In this document: positions 8,118-23,074 of the stretch, piece by piece | How positions within the stretch are numbered: the stretch's first letter is position 1 | How the letters are laid out: the number at the start of each line of letters is the position of its first letter | Assembly: GCA_002102555.1 (NCBI GenBank) | Contig: MCFL01000005.1 | Coordinates: forward strand, 124,001-188,000 | DNA length: 64,000 nucleotides | Direction: 5' to 3' | DNA from: Catenaria anguillulae PL171 | Taxonomy: Eukaryota > Blastocladiomycota > Blastocladiomycetes > Blastocladiales > Catenariaceae | The notes under the pieces: model-generated | Told to the model about the DNA's origin: nothing | The model's database searches: none | Seen by the model: only the letters and a program-made list of their open reading frames with translations | Made by a program: the position numbers and the translations under genes

Positions 8118-9281
8118 GCCGTCTTCCGCCCGGTTGGGCTCGTCAATCGGGTGGGTTGGGTCCAAGGTGGCGGTCGGCAGATTGTGGATACCTCCCGGAG
8201 TTGTTGGGAGACGTGGTTCAGGTGTAAGACGAGGAGACGCCGGTGAGCGCTTGGGTGGCTGATTTTGTCTGTTGTCGTTCGGTGGTGGGAGCTCGGTGAT
8301 GTGGGCTTCGATGTGGGCTTCAGGAGGAGGACCCACGTTGGCAGGCCGCTTCCTCGTGAGACTTGAATGCCAAGCCAGAGTGAAGCCTCAGGGTTATGGC
8401 CTTTGCTATCCTGACTTTTCATACAACGTGACCAAATTGGTTGGATCAGTTGCTTTTCGAATGCACCCCGGCGTAGGTAGCCTTAAGTCATGCCAAAGTC
8501 ATGCTACCGATTATTTGTATATGTCTTGATTGCCGTCAACCTTGGAGCTGGAAACAACTCGAAAGAACAGAAGAGTCGCCGTGGAAGCCTTCTAGAATGG
8601 CCGCTGGTCACGTGCAGAGATAGTGATAGGAGCAAACACGGATGCATGGCGATCGGATCATCAGATGAGATGGGCGAGCTGTGGAGTGGGTGATGTCGAT
8701 GGGCCGCCGATAAGTCGGCAACGGCGGTGACGGCCAACATGTGTATTGACACTGAACCAAACGATTTGGCCCTCTTTGCCACCCCACGACGTATACGCTG
8801 TCGCCCGACCGGATACCGTACCGTGACCGTACTGACCCTTGGACCGCCTTTCTCCTCTGGTGCGATCTCACCCGCCAACCCAACCAGAACATGTACATGC
8901 AAGGGCATGCGCCCAGCAACTCTTCACATCTGTGAGGGCCGATCGGGATGCCGACGGGATGGCGAGATTGCCAACCAACATGCCACAGACCAATGCGGCC
9001 CGCCTGGACTGCCGCCATGCGGCCGAATGCGCCTCGTGCTGGGCCTTTGGTGTTGGTTGCAATTCTCTCCCGATCCGGCAAGTTGATGCCGGGCGACCAT
9101 GCGATCCAATGCATTTGTCCAACCTCCCCACTGGGACCCGAGTGACTCCTCCAACGACGACTGACCTCGTGTGCTCCTTCCTGCTGTCTTTTGCCTGTGT
9201 ATTCATGTTCATTCGGTTCCTTCATCGACACTCGACAACCCTCGTCATCGGTTGCGACATTTCCAGTTCCCATCCATCACC
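8118..9281. other. Intergenic region without recognisable gene
   Basis: This is 1.16 kb between the LYR gene and IDH1. Several long open frames on both strands show no recognisable domain or family motif. One GGGTTATGGC word occurs at about 8393, the same word that is repeated inside the MITE at 2.1-2.5 kb. The last about 150 bp before 9282 are pyrimidine-rich and presumably hold the IDH1 promoter and leader. Confidence 0.4.
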
Positions 9282-10436
9282 ATGCTCGCCGCGCTCTCCA
9301 CCAAGGCCGCTTCCCGCGTCGCCACTGCCTCGTCGTCCCGTGCGTTCGGCTCGCTTGGCTCAAAGTTTGCCCTTTCTGATGCCGCCGAGTACGAGCCCAA
9401 GCTCACAAAGTACGCCGGCACGTACACGGTGACCTTGATCCCCGGTGATGGTGTTGGTACCGAAATGGCCAACTCTGTCAAGTCTGTGTTTGCCGCTGCC
9501 CAAGCGCCCGTCGAGTTTGACCAGTACAATGTGACTGGCGAGACGGGCAAGACGGACCCGACGCTACTCAAGGCGGCCGTCGACTCGCTCAAGCGCAACC
9601 GCGTGGGGCTCAAGGGCATTCTTTACACGCCCGTGTCCATGTACGGCGTGCCCTCGCTCAACGTGTCGATGCGCAAGGACCTCGACATTTACGCCTCGGT
9701 GTCGCTCGTGCGTAAAGTGCCCGGCTTCCACCCGCCCCACACCCCGGTCCACAAGGGCAACGTTGACTTTGTGATTATTCGTGAAAACACCGAGGGCGAG
9801 TACGCTGGTCTCGAGCACCAATCTTACCCGGGCGTGGTCGAATCGCTCAAAGTGGTGACGCGCGCAAAGTCGGAGCGCATTGCCCGGTTTGCCTTTGATT
9901 TCGCTGTGCGCAACGGCCGCAAGAAGGTCACGTGCGTGCACAAGGCCAACATCATGAAGCTCGGCGATGGTTTGTTCCTCAACACGTGCAAGGCCGTGGC
10001 CAAGGAGTACGAGGCCAAGGGCATCCAGTTCCAGGACATGATTGTCGACAACACAGCCATGCAGCTTGTTGCCAAGCCCCAGCAGTTTGACGTGATGGTC
10101 ATGGGTAACTTGTACGGTAACATTGCCTCCAACATTGGTGCCGCGCTTGTCGGCGGACCGGGCATTGTGCCCGGCGCCAACATTGGCCGCGACTATGCCA
10201 TCTTTGAGCCCGGATGCCGTCACGTCGGCAAGGACATTGAGGGCCGCAACGTGGCCAACCCGTCGGCCTTGCTCTTGTCGTCCGTCTTGTTGTTGCGTCA
10301 CTTGCACTTGGACGAGCACGCCGATCGCATTTCGCATGCCGTCTACAAGGCCTTGCAGGATGGTGTCCGGACCCCCGATATGGGCGGCACCGCCTCCACC
10401 ACCGACTTCACGGCCGCCGTCATCAAGAACTTGTAA
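9282..10436 (+). CDS. IDH1: NAD-dependent isocitrate dehydrogenase, subunit 1 (regulatory), mitochondrial
   Basis: This 384-residue, intron-free protein is a subunit of the mitochondrial enzyme that oxidises isocitrate to 2-oxoglutarate in the TCA cycle. The first about 35 residues (Ala/Ser/Arg-rich, MLAALSTKAASRVATASSSR) form a matrix-targeting presequence. Family motifs in order are TLIPGDGVGTEM, LNVSMRKDLDIYA, IRENTEGEYAGLEH, GVVESLKV, AVRNGRKKVTCVHKANIMKL, IVDNTAMQ, NIGAALVGGPG and FEPGCRHVGKDIEG. The loop pattern (DNTAMQLVAKPQQFD, SMRKDLDIYA) resembles the regulatory Idh1 subunit more than catalytic Idh2. The ATG at 9282 is chosen because the presequence starts there; the frame is open further upstream, but that part is unlikely to be translated. 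No catalytic-subunit partner is in this window. Confidence 0.95.
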   Translation: MLAALSTKAASRVATASSSRAFGSLGSKFALSDAAEYEPKLTKYAGTYTVTLIPGDGVGTEMANSVKSVFAAAQAPVEFDQYNVTGETGKTDPTLLKAAVDSLKRNRVGLKGILYTPVSMYGVPSLNVSMRKDLDIYASVSLVRKVPGFHPPHTPVHKGNVDFVIIRENTEGEYAGLEHQSYPGVVESLKVVTRAKSERIARFAFDFAVRNGRKKVTCVHKANIMKLGDGLFLNTCKAVAKEYEAKGIQFQDMIVDNTAMQLVAKPQQFDVMVMGNLYGNIASNIGAALVGGPGIVPGANIGRDYAIFEPGCRHVGKDIEGRNVANPSALLLSSVLLLRHLHLDEHADRISHAVYKALQDGVRTPDMGGTASTTDFTAAVIKNL

Positions 10437-13111: not shown

Positions 13112-16100
13112 TCATTTTGGCATCGTATCTCCCAAGTCATCCGGCGACGATGCCGTCTTGATCACGCGCACAGGAGGATACATGGCCGACGACCCCATCG
13201 CTACACTTGGTCGTTTGGACCCCATGGACGGTCCTTGTGTACTGTTGGCCCCGTTAAATGACTTGAGCGTCAGCGGGGCGGTAGTCGAGGATGCTCCGAA
13301 TGTTGCCACTGCGCTGCCGCCGCCAACAACGGATTGCTTGCAGTACTTGCAGCGAATCATGGCTGAGCTCGCGCCGGATGACCCTTCGCTATTGCCGCTG
13401 CTGTTGGAAACGTTGGAGACAATCACCGTCTCAATCGTGGATTTCGATTTGCCAAAAAACACGGCCTGCATCTTGGGCACGAAAAACGTGAGTTGAACGG
13501 CCAAGGTTGTTAGCGACGTCAAGGTGGCCGCAATGATGAACTGCACGAGCGGCTGTTGCAGCAACAACACCACGGTTCCCACAATCAGGAGCGTCAGGGC
13601 AATCATGTACGTGACGATTGCAATGTAAAATCCTTCGTTGAACTCGACTTGAACAGCGCGGGTCTAAGGAGGCAAGAACACTCATCAGTGAAATTGGACT
13701 ATGAAGAATAACGTGAGCAACGAACCTTGTAAGCGAGATACAGCCCAAACAGCGTCAATGCAACAACCGGCATGGAGCACAGGACTACCCAGTTTGCATT
13801 CATGGCGCTCAAAATCCACACCGTTCCCGCAATGCTGACCGAAAGTGTCGGCGTAGAGTCAAACACAAACCACAAGCCGCTCAGTAGCATTTGCGTAGCA
13901 AAAACGAGAGCGACAAAGACGTAATACTTGACCATCTTCCGAGTCATGATCTTGCGTGCCTTGAAGATGGAATGCACAATGTAAATTTTCGCCACAAGGG
14001 CTGAAAACATGAGCGAGTATCCGCCACCCAGCAGGAATGCCGTCTGCATGATGGCACTGCGCTGTCCTGAATCCCACATGCTGCCGATCAGGCCAACATG
14101 CGCCAGGAGCGCACCAAAGATGATGACAAGGCAAAATGGTGGGTTTGCAGCCTTGATCGCACGGTGTGCTCGGAACTTGACGACGAAAACAAGCAGCGAG
14201 ATTGCGGCTACAATACCGACAATGTTGATGACGGCAATTGGCCATTTGGCTCCCGCGTCAATCTGCCCCAGGGGCGGCGGTGGCGGATCCGGGTTGGCAA
14301 AGGAAACAAGAAGGCCACTTCCCGCACGTGTCGCGATTCCGCTCACAGCAATGACAGCTGTGAAAGGCGGTGGGTTGCATCGTTTCCAAACGCTTGCACC
14401 TACTCGATACTCGCAAGCTCCAGGTGTCGCGGATTGATTAAAAGCAACAAGCGCGTGCGAATGCAATCCACCAGGAAGAGGCCCGTATGCGGCATTATCC
14501 CACCGCATCTCATCCAAGCGCCAAACCCACGTCGAATTGAGAACACCTTCAGCCGAAAGCCCTCCCGTAAAGAGGACACGCCTATCGTCAACCGAAACAG
14601 CAGCCATACGCTCAGCCGCAGGCGGCGGACCAGACACGAGTGTGCTTGGCCGTTCTAGGCGCCAAGTATCGGTTGGAATGTCGTAAAGGTACAGGTTGTT
14701 GGTGTACTCAGAGGACGCCAATACACCTCCATACAAGGCGAGAACTGTGGAATTGACTGCCACTAGGGTTGCATGCTGGAGTGCCGGGGGAGGAGATGAC
14801 ACTCGCCCCGAATTGGAGTTTGCTGACAGTTGGGTCCATTTCTGTGTAGCAAAATCGAGTCGCCAGAAATCATTTTGAACGACCGCTGTGCCGGTAATTC
14901 CCCCGAAAATGTACAACGCCCGACCAACGGCTACGCGGGCCATATTTGTACGTGCAGCGGGTTGTGCATCGGTTGACGCAAACACGACTTGAATCCATTG
15001 CATCGAGTCCATCGAATAGGTCCAGACGTCTCGCAGGACAGACGCTGACAATGTGTTGCTTCCTCCCGTGCTCAAAGAACTTGGCGGTTCGGTTTGACCA
15101 CCAAACATAAAGATGCGGTTCGTCTCGTTATCAAATCCCATGGCATGAAACATTCGCCCAAGCGGCCGCGAGGAGGACGTGTCGGGGACTCGGGACCAAG
15201 AGTAACGATCGAAATCAAGGATCATGACATGCTGTGGAAACTCTCCGAGTTGGTTTTGGCCACCCCATGCCAAAATGCGGTTGTTTCCAATCGGGGCAGC
15301 GGCAAGGCCTTGAACATTGGGAGGCGCAGAAAGCCGCTGACCAAACGGAGGCAAGTCATACCAGGTCTTGTTGGCGGGTGCCGCGAGCGGCTGAAGGTCA
15401 CCAGTACTGGAGAACACACCCGTGGATATGGTTCGCCTTTGCAAGGACGAGCGGATCAGATTGACAATGCTTGCACGGGAAGCATAGGTCGTCGTCCCAC
15501 AAGTATCTGCCCCATTTTGCCGCAGGGAAACAGTGACGAGAGCACTGAAGTTCTTTTGCGGAGTGGAAACGAGATCAGCCAATCCAACCCCACCCAAAGA
15601 CACGTCGAGGTTGAGATTGAATCCTCCACGCTCGCCTCGCTTGATGTTATCAATGGCAATCCTGACGGCTGTATCGGCACGTTTCATGGCTGAGGATAAC
15701 AGCCGGTCCACTTCGCTGCGGTTGCGAAAGGTGGTTTGTGATTCGTCCGAATCGACCCCAATGGCCCATGCTCCTTGTCCAGCCGCGTGCAAGATGGTTC
15801 CACTGCCCAGGCCGCCGGCTGCTCCAAAAACAACATCAACGCCTGCTGCAAGCATGGGAGTCACGGTTTGGACCCCCAATGTGACATTACTGAAGCTTGG
15901 GACAAACTCGGCAAACGTTTCGCAGGTTGGACACACGGCAACAAGACCCGAATGGTAGCCGTTTACGAAGCGCTTGACTGGGGGCGAGGGGGTCCCCGCG
16001 ATGACCGCGACTCGACGAGACGTGGTGAAGATGCCTGCCAGCACTCCAGCAAGAAATCCCGACTGATCTTCGGCAAAGACAATGCCGATTGTGTTTTTGC

Positions 16101-16651
16101 TCGAGTTTGGCACGACTGTAGCGTCAATGACGACGAAGGACTTTGTCGGGTATTTGGGACTCAATGCCGTTACAGGTCCTGCAGCGGAAAAGAAACCGCC
16201 TATGTATACATCGTCGTCGGCTGAACCAAAACGTGTGAAAATATGTAGCTCGGAAAAGGCGAGTGAAGCAAGAAAATGGATGTACTGGTTCCAATGACTG
16301 AATCCCACGCAGCGATAGCATTTGAAGCGTTGGCAAATGGCAAGATAATGGTGTTCTGGCAGCGAACCAATCCTTGGGCTTCTAGTTCTGTACAGCCGCG
16401 CCAGGCCAGTCCTGCAAACGGACTAACATTGGCTGTGAAGAAAGTGCAAACATGATGAGTGCATCGAGAATGGGACCTCAGTGATCAAAGACAATCAAGA
16501 ATGTGGATAACGGACGGTCTGCGTTAGTGATGACGTTGACCTTGAGCTGTTGCCCATGGGATTCTATGGCAACGTTGAGGCAAACGAGAGCGGCAAGGGC
16601 AGCAGCAACAACCGCCCGCCTGATCAACGGTTTGGCACGGCCCTGAATCAT
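13112..16651 (-). CDS. Class C (GABA-B-like) receptor with BMP-type ligand domain and Kelch repeats
   Basis: Exons are 16516-16651, 16286-16432, 13726-16220 and 13112-13663, giving about 1109 residues. Introns are GTCCGT...CAG, GTACAT...CAG and GTTCGT...TAG, and all joins are in frame. After a signal peptide (RRAVVAAALAALVCLNVA) comes a periplasmic-binding-protein fold of the bacterial Med/BMP type, about residues 36-330 (WDSVIGTTDDDVYIGGFF, SFVVIDATVVPNSSKNTIGI, FLAGVLAG, GVDVVFGAAGG, AIGVDSD). Kelch repeats follow at about residues 390-665 (RILAWGGQN, RIFMFGGQT, ALYIFGGIT, LALYGGV, RVLFTGGLS). Seven membrane spans follow at about 725-1010 (GALLAHVGLIGSMW, MVKYYVFVALVF, NANWVVLCSM) with the class C hallmark FNEGFYIA before the last span. 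A Ser/Gly-rich cytosolic tail ends the protein. It is probably a plasma-membrane sensor for a small ligand coupled to a G protein; the ligand is unknown. Confidence 0.85.
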
Positions 16652-17234: not shown

Positions 17235-20200
17235 CTAAATGGAGTTTCGCCTTGCCCTCGTTACCACCCCGCCGCTCGGCCCCGCATTCTTGTTGACAAA
17301 CAATTGGAGCACGCCCGACTTTTCCCATTCCCGGACAATCTGCTTGCCATACTCGTACCCAACACGGTAAATCTGCTCAAAGTTGCCAAACTCGAAGCTT
17401 CCATAATGCGCAACGGGCGGGCGAAGATAAAAGCAGCCCGGCAATTGCTTAGCTTCTTCAAGTTGGCGGATGCACGAGACATAGGCGAGCTTGGATTGGA
17501 TGTCGGCAAGCGTCGGGATGGCCTTGCCTTTGCGGAATGGGTTCCAGCGGTTGAGCATGACGGCAAAACCCGAGAGACTGTCGTCAATGTGAACCTTGGA
17601 CGTGTCGTCGTCGGAGGCAACTGTTCAAACCAACTCTGATTGTCAGCCGTGACCTGTAATCGGTCGAAACAAAACCACGGAGCGTACCGTCCACCATGAT
17701 GACCAAGTCGGCGCCCAAACCCTTCATGATGTCACCGGGCAGGTTGTTGAGATACCCACCATCAACAAGCAGAATGCCATTGTCCGACAGCGGCGGCAGG
17801 AACCCCGACAATGACATGGACGCGCGCACGTATCGCCACAGGTATCCCGTTTGGTGTACCTCCATGCGTGAGTCGACAATGTTGGTCGTAATGGCAAAGT
17901 AGCTGAGCCAAAGGTCTTCGATCTGGATGTCGCCAAATGCTTTCCACACGCCGCGGTTGCTACACGTGGTTCATGAACCGTCAGCAAATCGGCCCAGATA
18001 GCCGACGTTGGAGTTTGTGAGATGAGAAACCAAACATACAATTGGTGCCCAGTCAAGTACGACGTGACCGGATACGTCAAATCCAAAACGGTTCGCCACA
18101 CCGAGGCCATCCTCCCCGAAAACGCTTTGAGCCGGCCCAGCACACTGACATGGTCCACATCCCTCGCATACAGCCCGCCTACCATGGACCCAATCGACGT
18201 CCCGCCGACCATGTCAATCGGCACGCCCGCTTCTTCCAGCGCGCGAATGACGCCCAAGTGAGAAATGCCTCGTGCGCCACCTCCACCAAGCACTAGCCCA
18301 ATGGACCGACCGCACAGCCTCCGCGCCAAGCGCGCGAAATCCGACCGCGGGCCAATAATGCCACCCAAGTGATGCGCATCGCCCGAATGAGCGCCGTGCC
18401 GGCCACGACGTAGCTTGATGAGCAGCGGCGTCGTGTACTGCGAATAGTAGTGCCTAAGTGTGCCCTTCAGATGATCCAGCGCACCAGACAGGGTCAGGTC
18501 CTCGACCATAGGCCCGCCACCATAAGTGCCCTTGCGCGTTCGAGACGGGACAAGCTTGGCGCTGCTCGTCATGGACCGGTTGGGTCCAGGCTTGGTTGAA
18601 GACATGGAAGAGGACCACGAGGACGCAGAGGCAGCCTCACCGCCGAGCATGGCCGTCGATGACAAGTCCATGGGCATGGCGACATGATGGTGCCCGTGGA
18701 TCCACAGCCGGTTGCTCAACCACTTGCGGGTCAATCCATGTTCACACGAACGTGTAGGGTGCAACAACACAAGTTCCTTGCGTGCCGTCGTCTTGACGCC
18801 CAACATGTAGCGCTCGTACTCACCAACAACGGGATCCTGGTTTGCGACCGCAACAAGCAAAATACAGTCGGCCTGCCGGATGCACCGCTGCGTCCATGGA
18901 CTCGTGACACCTCCGTCGGCGACATAGAGCACAATCCGATGACGCGTCTCCTGCTCCGCCAACCACGACATGAGCTTGAGCTTGCCCATCCTCGTAAATG
19001 CGTGCTTGCCAAGGACCGACAAGACGGATGCCTGCGTGAGCAACAAGGCCGACTCGCCAAGCGTGTGTACGAGCGCGGCGTGCAGCTTGTCGGCAAACTC
19101 GACCACAGGGACAGCGGCATGTACAGGCAGCACCGCCACGGTCCGCAGGTTTGCATTGTTCTTGCCCAAATCGGCCGCACTTGCCCCACCTGCGCTTCCG
19201 TTCCCGCCACCCATTGGCAAACCAGGCACACGTGCCGCCACGCCAGCTCCTAGGGTCTGCTTCTGCGACCGACCCGCAATGATCCTCGCCATGGCCAATG
19301 TGATCTCGGGATGGCGCAACGCGAGCGCCTCAAACAAGGTGTGTGGCATTTGAGCTAGCTCCGTATCGCGAATCGCGTGCGTCGTGTGCGGCCTTGGCGT
19401 GCCCATGAGCACGTCTTGCTCGCCAACCGATTCGCCTTGGCCGTGCTCCGAAACCACATCAAAGGTGCCATTGGCTTGTTCTTGAATGGCACGGAGGCGG
19501 CCGTTTAGGACCATGTAGATGGAGTCGGACGGATCTTTTTGCCGGTACAGAACATGGCCGGCGTTTACCTGCATCCATTCAAGCGCGAAATCGATGCTGT
19601 CGAGCACGAACGCAACAGTGAGATACATGCCCATAGGTAAATGATAACGGAAACACACGTACTGCAGGACGAGAGGACTCAGCACACTCACCAACCGATG
19701 CGCCAACGTCAAGATCACTGCTGGTTGTCGATCCACCAAACGATCAATAGCATGCTTGGGCATGAATCCCACACACAGGTCTGTCCTGGCTTCGAGTTTC
19801 AAAAACGACGCATGTCCCGTCAATGCAGGCATGTAGCCGGCCAATCCACCGGGACGCACAAAGTACTGATGCGCAGGTGCAGGGGCTCTTGTCGACGACG
19901 GCATGGCCGCGATGGGCTCCTGCCCGTGCATGTGTGGGGAATGTTGGTGCTGCTGCTGCTGTTGATGTTGTTGTTGTTGTTGTTGTTGCGCCGCAGCCAG
20001 CATCGGGCCAGGCGCGCCGCCCCTAGCGCTTGCACCTGCTCCGCCTGCAGTGGCGTTGGCAGGCGGCGTCGAAATCGCCAGCAGGCCATCAATCACGTAA
20101 AACAACCCATCCACAGGCTGACCTGGCTTGACGAGCGGCGTGCCTTTGCGATAAAAGCGGATTTCAACATCGTTGGTATCCACCTCGGACACTGCAGACG

Positions 20201-23074
20201 TGGCAGATGCCGATGACGAAATGCTTGGGTGGGAGCCAACGGGACTCGCACCATACGATGACGCCATACTCATGAGCGGCCATCCCGACGTGGCTCGCGA
20301 CCTGAGTGCCGGTGACATTGCCGATGTTGGCGGAATGGCATGCGGAACGTGCGCAGAAATGCTTGCTGTTCCGCTCTCATCCAGCTCCGCACACAACACG
20401 GCAGCGGCCGCATCCCTCAACCCAATCGCGTGCAAGATGCTTGCAAACACGGACCTGCGCAGATGCAGCTCCTCGTCCGGATCGTCAAATGCTCGCGTGT
20501 CCCCACCCATGTTGACGGCGCCCACGCCACCCGCAGTTGAGATATGCCCATGGCCGCTCTCTGTCGATGAAGCTATCAGCCCGCTGCTCGCCAAAGGTGA
20601 ACCGCTGCCACTGATCTTGGCCATGACCGACATGCGACTGACGCCCGTCGGAATCCCTGTCAACGCGCGTGTCTTGCGCACCAATGGCGTGGTTGCTGCC
20701 GCAACCGCGGCCGCACGTGCAGCAGCTGAGGACGATGATGGGGCCGATGAGGCGAATGACGGACCCGCGATCACCGCCAGCGAAGCCGTGGGGGTGCCTG
20801 GCGGTCCCGTGTTTGGCGCCGACGAGGAAGACGCCATCTGGTCAGAGATGATTGGCAGGTCTGCAACACTTGCGCGGCGAGACGCCGCGGCGCCACCTCC
20901 GACAATGCCAAGCCCTAATGCCCCGGCGCCGGCGGGCGTCGGCAGTCCAGGCTCCTTTCCGCCACCTACCCCACCGCCTTGCTCGCCGCCGCCGTCTGCG
21001 CCACCGGTCCCACTTCGGACATGCCCACGGTACACGGAATGCCCCATGTGAAACCTTCTCCTCAACCGCTCAAGCCCGCCCGGCCGAAACCCGTCTGCGC
21101 CAGCGCCCGCTGCCCCACCTCCCAAGCCGCCCGCCGCCGTCGCATATTCGTGCAACTGCTGATCAATTGCCAACACGGCCGCGGGCATGCCCAAATACTG
21201 CGCGAGCGCCGCACATGTGACGCGCTGGAACCGCGTCAGGATCACTTGCGCAATGTGTGCTGCGGCGTGCGGGTACTTGTCGAGCAGCTTGAGAAAGGCT
21301 TCGGCAGGCAGGACAAGCAGGGTCGTGTCGCGCGACGCGCGCGCTGTCATGCCCGTGTCGAGGATCGACGGCAACGACGGGTCTGAAGGGGACGGGTGCG
21401 TCGGTAGGCGAGAGTGTGTGGAGCGCGCGTGCGAGTGGAACGAGCCGTTCGGAATGGATGATGATGACGAGGATAAGTGCGGCGGCGTGGCACCGAACGT
21501 CGAGTGGAATGAGGCAGAGGGATCGGCCGTCGATTGGCGCGAGCCAAGTGTGGGTCGATGGGCAGTGGAGGGGCGGCTGCCTCTTGACGGGCGCGGGCTG
21601 CCTGTGGCATTGTCAATGTGCGGAAACACGTGGCCATTGTCGCCCGATGAGCCAGACGCCGAAGATGGCGGTGACGAGTTGTTGTCTGGGACCACCATGT
21701 CACCACTGCCAGCGTGGACGAGGTCAAATGTCGGATCAGAGGATTCGGTCATGACGGAATCTTCAGCCGAGTGGGCGTGTGGGGTTGGAGGCGGGTAATA
21801 CGTGTGTGCAAGGGGATGCGGTCTCGAGGTGGCGTCGTGTGTCAGTGGCGAGTTTTCGACCGTGGTCGATCTGGATCGGTACATGGCTGGCTCTTGGTGC
21901 TGTGGGTGTTGGTGATGGCCCCCGGCGGCTGAAAATGAGGAGGATGAGGGCCATGGCGATGCGTCATCCGCTTGAGGTGGAAGGGGTGCGGCAACGACCT
22001 CGGGCTGCACATCATTTCCCAGTGTATGCGAAAACAGGGACAAAATGGAAAACAAACTCGACACGGTCCCGCCCGCATGGACCTCGTTGAGCAATGTGTG
22101 GCCCGGTAAAGGCTCGTCCGGGTCGAGCGGCGGCGCATACATGGATGACGACATGGGCGTTCCGATGCCACCACCAGGTGGTGCAAGGTGAGGTGGGTAG
22201 GATGCAGCCGAATTGGCCGATGCGCCCATCGAGTTGGTAAAGATGCATGAATCGAGTGGGTGGTGCGACGAGTGGTCCGTGCCTGAATTGCGCACGTATA
22301 CTTGGACACATCCGTCGACGACAATGTAAAAGTTGTTTTCTCCCGGGGAGTCGGCTGTGAAGAGCATGTCGCCAGCTGGTAGTTTACGAGTCTGCAATGT
22401 GACAAATGGCCATGGTGAGCGACACACAAGAGCAGGCATCACTGAAAAGCATCCACAATGCGTCGTACCTGCAACCGCCTGGCCAACTCGTGAAACACGG
22501 GCGGCTCCATGAACCCAAACACGCGAATCGACTGCAAGAATGACCCCAAGAAATCCTCGGCGTAATTAAACCCGCTGGGTCCCCTCGTACCGGGTCCCTG
22601 ATGATGGTCGTCTGCAACACCCGTCGCGTCCGGATGCAAGTCATAGCTGGCGCCCTGCGCCTTAAGCGGCGGTGCCGGTTGTGGCAAACGAGAGTATTTC
22701 GTGAGGTACACCCGATGTACAATTGCGTAGGTGAGCGCGGATCCGAGAATGAGCATGAGGACGACGCCACGGTAATCAAAAGTCAGGACGAGCGACCAGG
22801 AGAGGGCGCGCGACACGAGTGCAAGGGCGGTGGCCGGGACAGTCACGAGGAGAAACGAAACAACGTGGCCGACGACCGAGGATACGAGCGATTCGGCGGC
22901 GGCAATCGGATCAAAGTCCATGGTTGGAGCTTGGGCGGCAGCGGTTGTGTGAGCAGCGGTTGCGGCAGATTCCAAAAGGAATGCATCCGAGGAATCAAGG
23001 CTTGACGCCGCAGCACTTACAGTGTGAGCCAGCGCTAGACTCAAGAACGTCGATATGCTTGTCGTCCGACCCAT
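17235..23074 (-). CDS. NTE1: Lysophospholipase NTE1 (neuropathy target esterase homologue)
   Basis: Exons are 22469-23074, 19663-22391, 18040-19596, 17688-17959 and 17235-17620, giving about 1849 residues with every join in frame. The enzyme is an ER-membrane serine esterase that deacylates lysophosphatidylcholine and phosphatidylcholine. An N-terminal signal or anchor and a second span ([22 protein letters not shown]) come first. Cyclic-nucleotide-binding-like domains follow ([60 protein letters not shown]). The patatin domain carries the oxyanion motif [12 protein letters not shown], the nucleophile GTSIG and the catalytic Asp in DGGYLNNLP; the tail LNRWNPF...[12 protein letters not shown] is typical. 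Long Ser/His/Gly-rich inserts separate the regulatory domains, including a polyglutamine-type stretch coded near 19950-19990. All key catalytic residues are present. Confidence 0.95.
19945..19992. repeat. CTG/TTG (polyglutamine-coding) trinucleotide repeat inside NTE1
   Basis: The plus strand reads as runs of CTG then TTG with one GATG interruption. On the coding strand this is CAA/CAG and gives a Gln-His stretch in the NTE1 linker. It lies in a low-complexity region between regulatory domains, so length changes should be tolerated. Confidence 0.7.

Follow-up and report, generated by a model that had tools for sequence, protein, structure and literature searches.

Receptors that join a BMP domain to a class C seven-span domain have been described in Dictyostelium and in Allomyces. 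According to the accessible text of PMC1885808, the BMP domain occurs in 12 (its list of exceptions) or 13 (its text) of the 17 Dictyostelium Grl receptors, and the available part of PMC3251606 likewise gives 13 of 17. GrlJ, as described in the accessible text of PMC1885808, has a signal peptide, a BMP flytrap, and a GABA-B-like seven-span domain; at 783 aa it leaves little room for a 350-aa propeller, and the Grl type described for it has no domain between the BMP and 7TM parts. In the available part of PMC3251606, AMAG_08984 and AMAG_12053 of Allomyces macrogynus are given as Glutamate-family receptors with a BMP domain. Class C receptors are also covered, in the parts available, by an amoebal survey of 2023 (PMC10445921) and a fungal survey of 2025 (PMC12842992). 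The word "Kelch" has 0 occurrences in the main texts of these four papers, and five receptor and chemotaxis terms have 0 occurrences in PMC8887899.

The gene described here lies at positions 13112..16651 (minus strand) of the window, by which we mean the whole stretch of 64,000 nucleotides analysed (C403:124001-188000 in the contig labels of this analysis, from the 41.07 Mb genome of Catenaria anguillulae PL171). The predicted protein resembles GrlJ in its signal-like N-terminus, BMP flytrap, and GABA-B-like seven-span domain, and differs from the Grl type in having a Kelch region between the last two. As far as the accessible description in PMC3251606 allows a comparison, the two Allomyces receptors come from the same phylum and perhaps belong to the same family; BMP, Kelch, and 7tm_3 are all present in the homologue from Allomyces arbusculus (P0005). 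The preliminary description of this DNA had called the build unusual. To judge from the partly available Grl and Allomyces accounts, the combination of a BMP domain and a class C 7TM had been described before; what is new is the intervening Kelch propeller, no report of Kelch with fungal or class C receptors being found in the literature searched (most subscription journals and the supplements lying outside it). This gene is evidence that a 350-residue propeller can stand between the flytrap and the membrane domain of a class C receptor, and such a placement matters for how the closing of the lobes is conveyed to the membrane.

Domain composition of the receptor

Three domains were recognised in the protein, each by a Pfam profile over its cut-off and by structure matches. 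The BMP/PnrA-type binding domain (aa 36-331; 15511..16546, minus strand, with two introns inside) scores 102.1 bits with Pfam Bmp over aa 112-314 (cut-off 24.1), and its PDB matches are Lbp, PnrA, TmpC, BmpD, and BmpA. The Kelch beta-propeller (approximately aa 376-722; 14338..15378, minus strand) scores 148.9 bits with Kelch_KLHDC2 (cut-off 50), and both this profile and the propeller fold assign it to the Kelch domains. It has its fold in common with LZTR1/KLHDC2 and Attractin-type propellers; the Kelch structures matched include degradation adaptors and plant specifier proteins, with no GPCR among the rows listed for this region. The class C seven-span domain (aa 751-990; 13472..14253, minus strand, with intron 3 inside) scores 100.1 bits with 7tm_3 (cut-off 33.5). 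Its best PDB match is GABA-B receptor subunit 2 (E 1.4e-12), followed by R1 and mGlu, and every one of the 42 distinct PDB sequences at E<=0.001 is GABA-B or mGlu. The layout drawn in the preliminary description (signal peptide, BMP fold, Kelch propeller, GABA-B-like region) is thus borne out for the domains; the N-terminus is a signal-like hydrophobic stretch judged by eye.

The seven-span domain is shared with metazoan GABA-B and metabotropic glutamate receptors, in which the flytrap is of the LIVBP/ANF type, with a cysteine-rich stalk in mGlu; we know of no Kelch domain in these receptors. For the Catenaria protein, Pfam found no LIVBP/ANF family at E<=0.001, and 0 of the 72 ANF_receptor matches in the genome fall at the gene, which rules out a LIVBP/ANF flytrap and upholds the earlier assignment of the N-terminal fold to BMP. 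Within the seven-span part, ALVAKIYIVHSIFKARK aligns with AMFAKTWRVHAIFKNVK of GABA-B R2. FNEGFYIA, which had been singled out as a hallmark of the GABA-B-like region, aligns with GABA-B LNDSKYIG, and FVPK with FVPK. We take the FNEGFYIA position to be the boundary of the third inner loop and TM6, and these aligned stretches presumably include residues of the class C ionic lock.

Judged by its domains, the protein is a class C GPCR with a BMP flytrap, and G-protein coupling is predicted; G-alpha genes are present in the same genome. The domain order would place the flytrap outside the cell. After TM7, the tail carries the motif RCKYCKQ (aa 1030-1036; 13334..13354, minus strand), which is also found on C63, C3, and C112:953k. 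It is exact in four of eight Blastocladiomycota rows and present as a close variant in three more; in the alignment P0002 ends before it. A degenerate DNA pattern for the motif has six exact matches in the genome, four of them in the receptor family, and the reversed pattern has 0. The motif could be metal-binding or lipid-modified.

The BMP pocket and its putative ligand

The pocket of BmpA and its structural relatives is given in the accessible part of PMC13325309 as F27, F151, F176, V224, D225, and K242, with D98 also placed to engage ribose; in the same part, F27A or F176A leaves no detectable thymidine binding. The corresponding residues of the window protein are F51, D127 (for D98), F179, F204, V250, D251, and K274, identical at 7 of 7 positions in a map made through alignments to Lbp and PnrA and residue spacing, rather than a direct BmpA alignment or a co-structure. 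The bacterial PnrA/BmpA/BmpD/Lbp lipoproteins share the BMP fold and all seven of these residues with the window protein; they differ from it in being transporter-type binding proteins, not receptors, and in the loop at the pocket entry around F51.

How far this identity points to a ligand depends on how common it is. Among 106 bacterial BMP rows, gathered partly by similarity, all seven residues are found in 75, which makes this the commonest pattern, and V-D-K at the last three positions in 93. The remaining 13 (two of them fragments and one with R for K) show that the pocket can change within the BMP family; six have A/T-E-G, with N or H at the D98 position. Since most rows of this bacterial set have all seven residues, the receptor has kept the usual BMP pocket and not an exceptional one, and the comparison of these sequences indicates that the seven residues by themselves do not pick out a ligand.

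The pocket is mostly retained in the receptor family. In ten fungal rows, V224, D225, and K242 are found in all ten and D98 in nine (T in P0006), while position F176 has F in eight rows and W in the other two. At the F151 position, six rows have F, three Y, and one L; at F27, each of the eight rows with a letter there has F, the P0008 stretch being doubtful. Similarly, at ten further genome places, read from six-frame matches that may run across introns, F176, V224, D225, and K242 are kept in 10/10. Here six places have F at the F27 position and two have Y, the remaining two being unaligned; D98 is retained in eight and replaced by R in L063 and by M in L064, and F151 is retained in eight, with L in L061 and an unclear reading in L064.

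On balance, we lean towards a class C GPCR whose PnrA/BMP flytrap would bind nucleosides and whose Kelch domain would form a stalk to the membrane domain. A nucleoside would enter the BMP cleft, where F51 and F204 would hold its base from either side and D127, D251, and K274 its ribose, and the two lobes would close round it. This closure would be relayed through the propeller, acting as a stalk or as a dimer contact, and the GABA-B-like seven-span domain would then rearrange and activate a G protein. The receptor is real and conserved, and most likely a nucleoside sensor; it may act as a dimer and serve in zoospore chemotaxis. The nucleoside-like ligand of the preliminary description gains from the complete identity of the pocket, but the pattern is too common to settle it. 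The pocket comparison is what the present analysis adds, and through the two aromatic residues the family offers a concrete ligand test. The accessible parts of the literature looked at, which was not a survey, name no ligand for any class C receptor of fungi.

A receptor of the same build could have a BMP pocket that has drifted to some other small flat ligand, such as a pterin, a B6 vitamer, or another heterocycle, which we regard as possible but clearly the less probable case. Members of the BMP family do differ in specificity, BmpA preferring thymidine and BmpD adenosine (PMC7093131 and PMC13325309, in the parts available), and in the receptor the entry loop near F51 differs from that of bacteria while the seven shared residues, being a common pattern, may not fix the ligand. 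Such drift is opposed by the base- and ribose-holding residues, which remain identical. The only NCBIfam BMP model to match, ABC_BMP_B6 (NF047927), describes a putative B6 binder and would favour a changed ligand; it reached 38.6-62.6 bits on the three proteins scanned (P0001, P0003, and P0054), far under its cut-off of 400, and it also matches, again far below the cut-off, all 10 bacterial BMPs tried, two of which have a different pocket. Being far under its cut-off and non-discriminating, the B6 label was rejected as evidence for a ligand.

The Kelch propeller and the membrane domain

The Kelch region should be extracellular, to judge from the protein sequences: it lies between the signal-like N-terminus with the flytrap on one side and TM1 on the other, and it has one N-x-T sequon kept in 11/11 rows together with two invariant cysteines. 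An excess of sequons is unconvincing as proof of this topology. The Kelch part has 5, compared with 2.8 for shuffled sequences (13% of which reach 5), the BMP part 6 against 3.0 (reached by 5.7%), and the cytoplasmic tail 3 against 1.4 (reached by 12%), so that the counts are weakly above the shuffles and the excess in the tail is similar. Among the sequon evidence, only the sequon kept in all eleven rows is informative.

Structure prediction, which the preliminary description had proposed, was applied to the paralogue P0001, whose model has a mean pLDDT of 64.5 and a pTM of 0.42, with Kelch as its best-modelled domain. A fold search with the model returned a GABA-B row with E 5.7e-16, at an rmsd of 28.3 over 1024 columns, so the placement of the domains is unmatched. 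The search with the whole model was dominated by Kelch matches, and the BMP assignment rests on sequence.

Several of the matched Kelch structures hold peptides, degrons, or small molecules. Together with the good modelling of this domain, this would suit a receptor in which the propeller does most of the sensing, its target being a surface sugar or protein of prey or substrate, while the BMP domain serves only to shape or dimerise the receptor. We consider this improbable; the BMP pocket is mostly kept although the BMP domains of the four family members compared are only 37-63% identical to that of the window protein, and the flytrap is the usual ligand site of class C receptors.

The closeness of the seven-span domain to GABA-B subunit 2, which does not bind agonist, raises the further idea of an orphan partner, comparable to one GABA-B subunit, that would couple to the G protein within a heterodimer and take no ligand of its own. 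The approximately nine such genes in the genome (see below) could pair in this way. The pocket is complete, which makes an orphan subunit very unlikely.

Gene model, copies, and distribution of the family

The gene starts with ATG at 16651 and stops at 13112 (minus strand); its four exons, joined by GT-AG splicing, give 1109 aa, which confirms both the coordinates and the joined frames put forward earlier. Exon 1 (16516..16651) encodes the hydrophobic N-terminus (aa 1-33) and the first BMP strand. It is followed by intron 1 (16433..16515, 83 bases), exon 2 (16286..16432), which continues the BMP domain and contains F51, the first pocket aromatic, and intron 2 (16221..16285, 65 bases). Exon 3 (13726..16220) is 831 complete codons without a stop and holds the BMP domain from aa 96, the entire Kelch region, and TM1-TM5. 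After intron 3 (13664..13725, 62 bases), exon 4 (13112..13663) encodes FNEGFYIA, TM6, TM7 with FVPK, and the cytoplasmic tail. All of these lie on the minus strand. Because most of the BMP domain, all of Kelch, and TM1-TM5 share exon 3, the fusion is not a splicing artefact, and the Kelch and seven-span parts belong to a single gene.

A copy on C63 is 96.9% identical to the window gene over 4776 bases including flanks and is probably its other allele. Divergence between the two is 1.1-3.4% across the four exons and 10.7% over 206 aligned intron bases, and the exons differ in length only by three bases, inserted in frame into exon 3 on C63. Low divergence by itself is no proof of coding, since the 1081 bases upstream also differ by just 2.6%; the coding support comes from the reading frame and from the approximate pN/pS of exon 3, 0.116 over 831 codons with 14 amino-acid differences. 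A mis-joining of neighbouring genes can be ruled out for practical purposes, given the single exon 3 with this pN/pS and the same domain order at other genome places and in the gene models of five other species.

The best match to the window gene among the public proteins, within the length limits and among the matches listed, is P0001 at 62% identity. The window gene may be missing or poorly modelled in the public annotation, although the database does include proteins from this assembly. Elsewhere in the window, reading by eye suggests a patatin-type phospholipase, of the kind seen in neuropathy target esterase (GGGGARG, GTSIG), in the long frames at 17235-22565 (minus strand), and a likeness to an isocitrate dehydrogenase subunit in a 423 aa frame at 9165-10436 (plus strand).

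In each of ten genome stretches picked by match to P0001, pieces of BMP, Kelch, and 7TM follow one another in this order along one strand. With the window gene this gives 11 places. If C63 and C206 hold the alleles of the window gene and of C112:489k, respectively, these amount to approximately nine genes, the rest being probable allelic copies; the second pairing is made from similar match patterns only. All 13 BMP matches in the genome fall inside these 11 places; 7tm_3 matches number at least 150, counted exon-wise. Of the public proteins, P0001 lies on C112 (99% over residues 280-914), P0002 on C409, P0006 on C113, and P0007 on C3. Two further loci, L065 and L066, were picked for Kelch near 7tm_3 and gave no match to the window protein. 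At both (L065:985-5662 and L066:1069-6110), a Kelch frame is followed, along its own strand, by a frame with a stretch resembling bacterial solute-binding proteins (SBP_bac_8, below cut-off) and by a 7tm_3 frame.

The survey of zoosporic fungi suggested in the preliminary description found the same domain order in two fungal phyla. Besides the four Catenaria proteins (P0001, P0002, P0006, and P0007), the family includes P0003 and P0004 of Blastocladiella emersonii, P0005 of Allomyces arbusculus, and, in three Chytridiomycota, P0008 of Siphonaria sp., P0053 of Obelidium mucronatum, and P0054 of Phlyctochytrium planicorne. This distribution is a minimum, as the protein searches scored approximately 8000 candidates sharing most words within length limits. 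Pfam recognised Bmp in 9/10 of these proteins, and Kelch and 7tm_3 in 10/10 each (in P0053, whose model is cut within the 7TM, the latter at 31.5 bits, just below the cut-off), with the BMP-Kelch-7TM order in 9/10. P0007 lacks Bmp because its 622-residue model begins inside Kelch; Bmp is found upstream on the contig. The Siphonaria model P0008 starts with a phosphoesterase piece (PF04185, residues 55-200), probably a mis-joined neighbour gene.

In a FastTree phylogeny of 87 sequences, all ten fungal BMPs form one clade (SH-like 0.997) among bacterial BMPs. The family 7TMs also group, nine rows together with L025, a family member, with a support of 0.68; the tree had 28 sequences, members with a short 7TM and 12 of the 30 7TM loci of the genome being omitted from it. 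The simplest reading is a single fusion passed down in both phyla. The node joining the fungal BMPs to the nearest bacterial group has a support of 0.17, and we therefore name no bacterial donor; P0011 (47% identity) and P0031 (45%) are not sisters of the fungal BMPs in the tree. More tentatively, and with considerable doubt as to the whole, the receptor could have been rebuilt before the split of Blastocladiomycota and Chytridiomycota from three modules with no kinship to one another, a transferred bacterial nucleoside binder, an extracellular Kelch domain, and a GABA-B-like domain, as a dedicated nucleoside receptor class with the propeller as a second, independent recognition surface. If so, a spore would answer dissolved nucleosides and a surface cue together.

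Eight bacterial relatives (P0032-P0038 and P0040) have the BMP domain fused to a BPD_transp_2 permease domain, which presumably fits a nucleoside or sugar importer. By precomputed Pfam, other bacterial BMP domains occur joined to a protein kinase domain in P0047 and to transcription activators of the SARP/BTAD type in P0048-P0052, and these domain combinations suggest that bacterial BMPs may act as sensors outside transport too.
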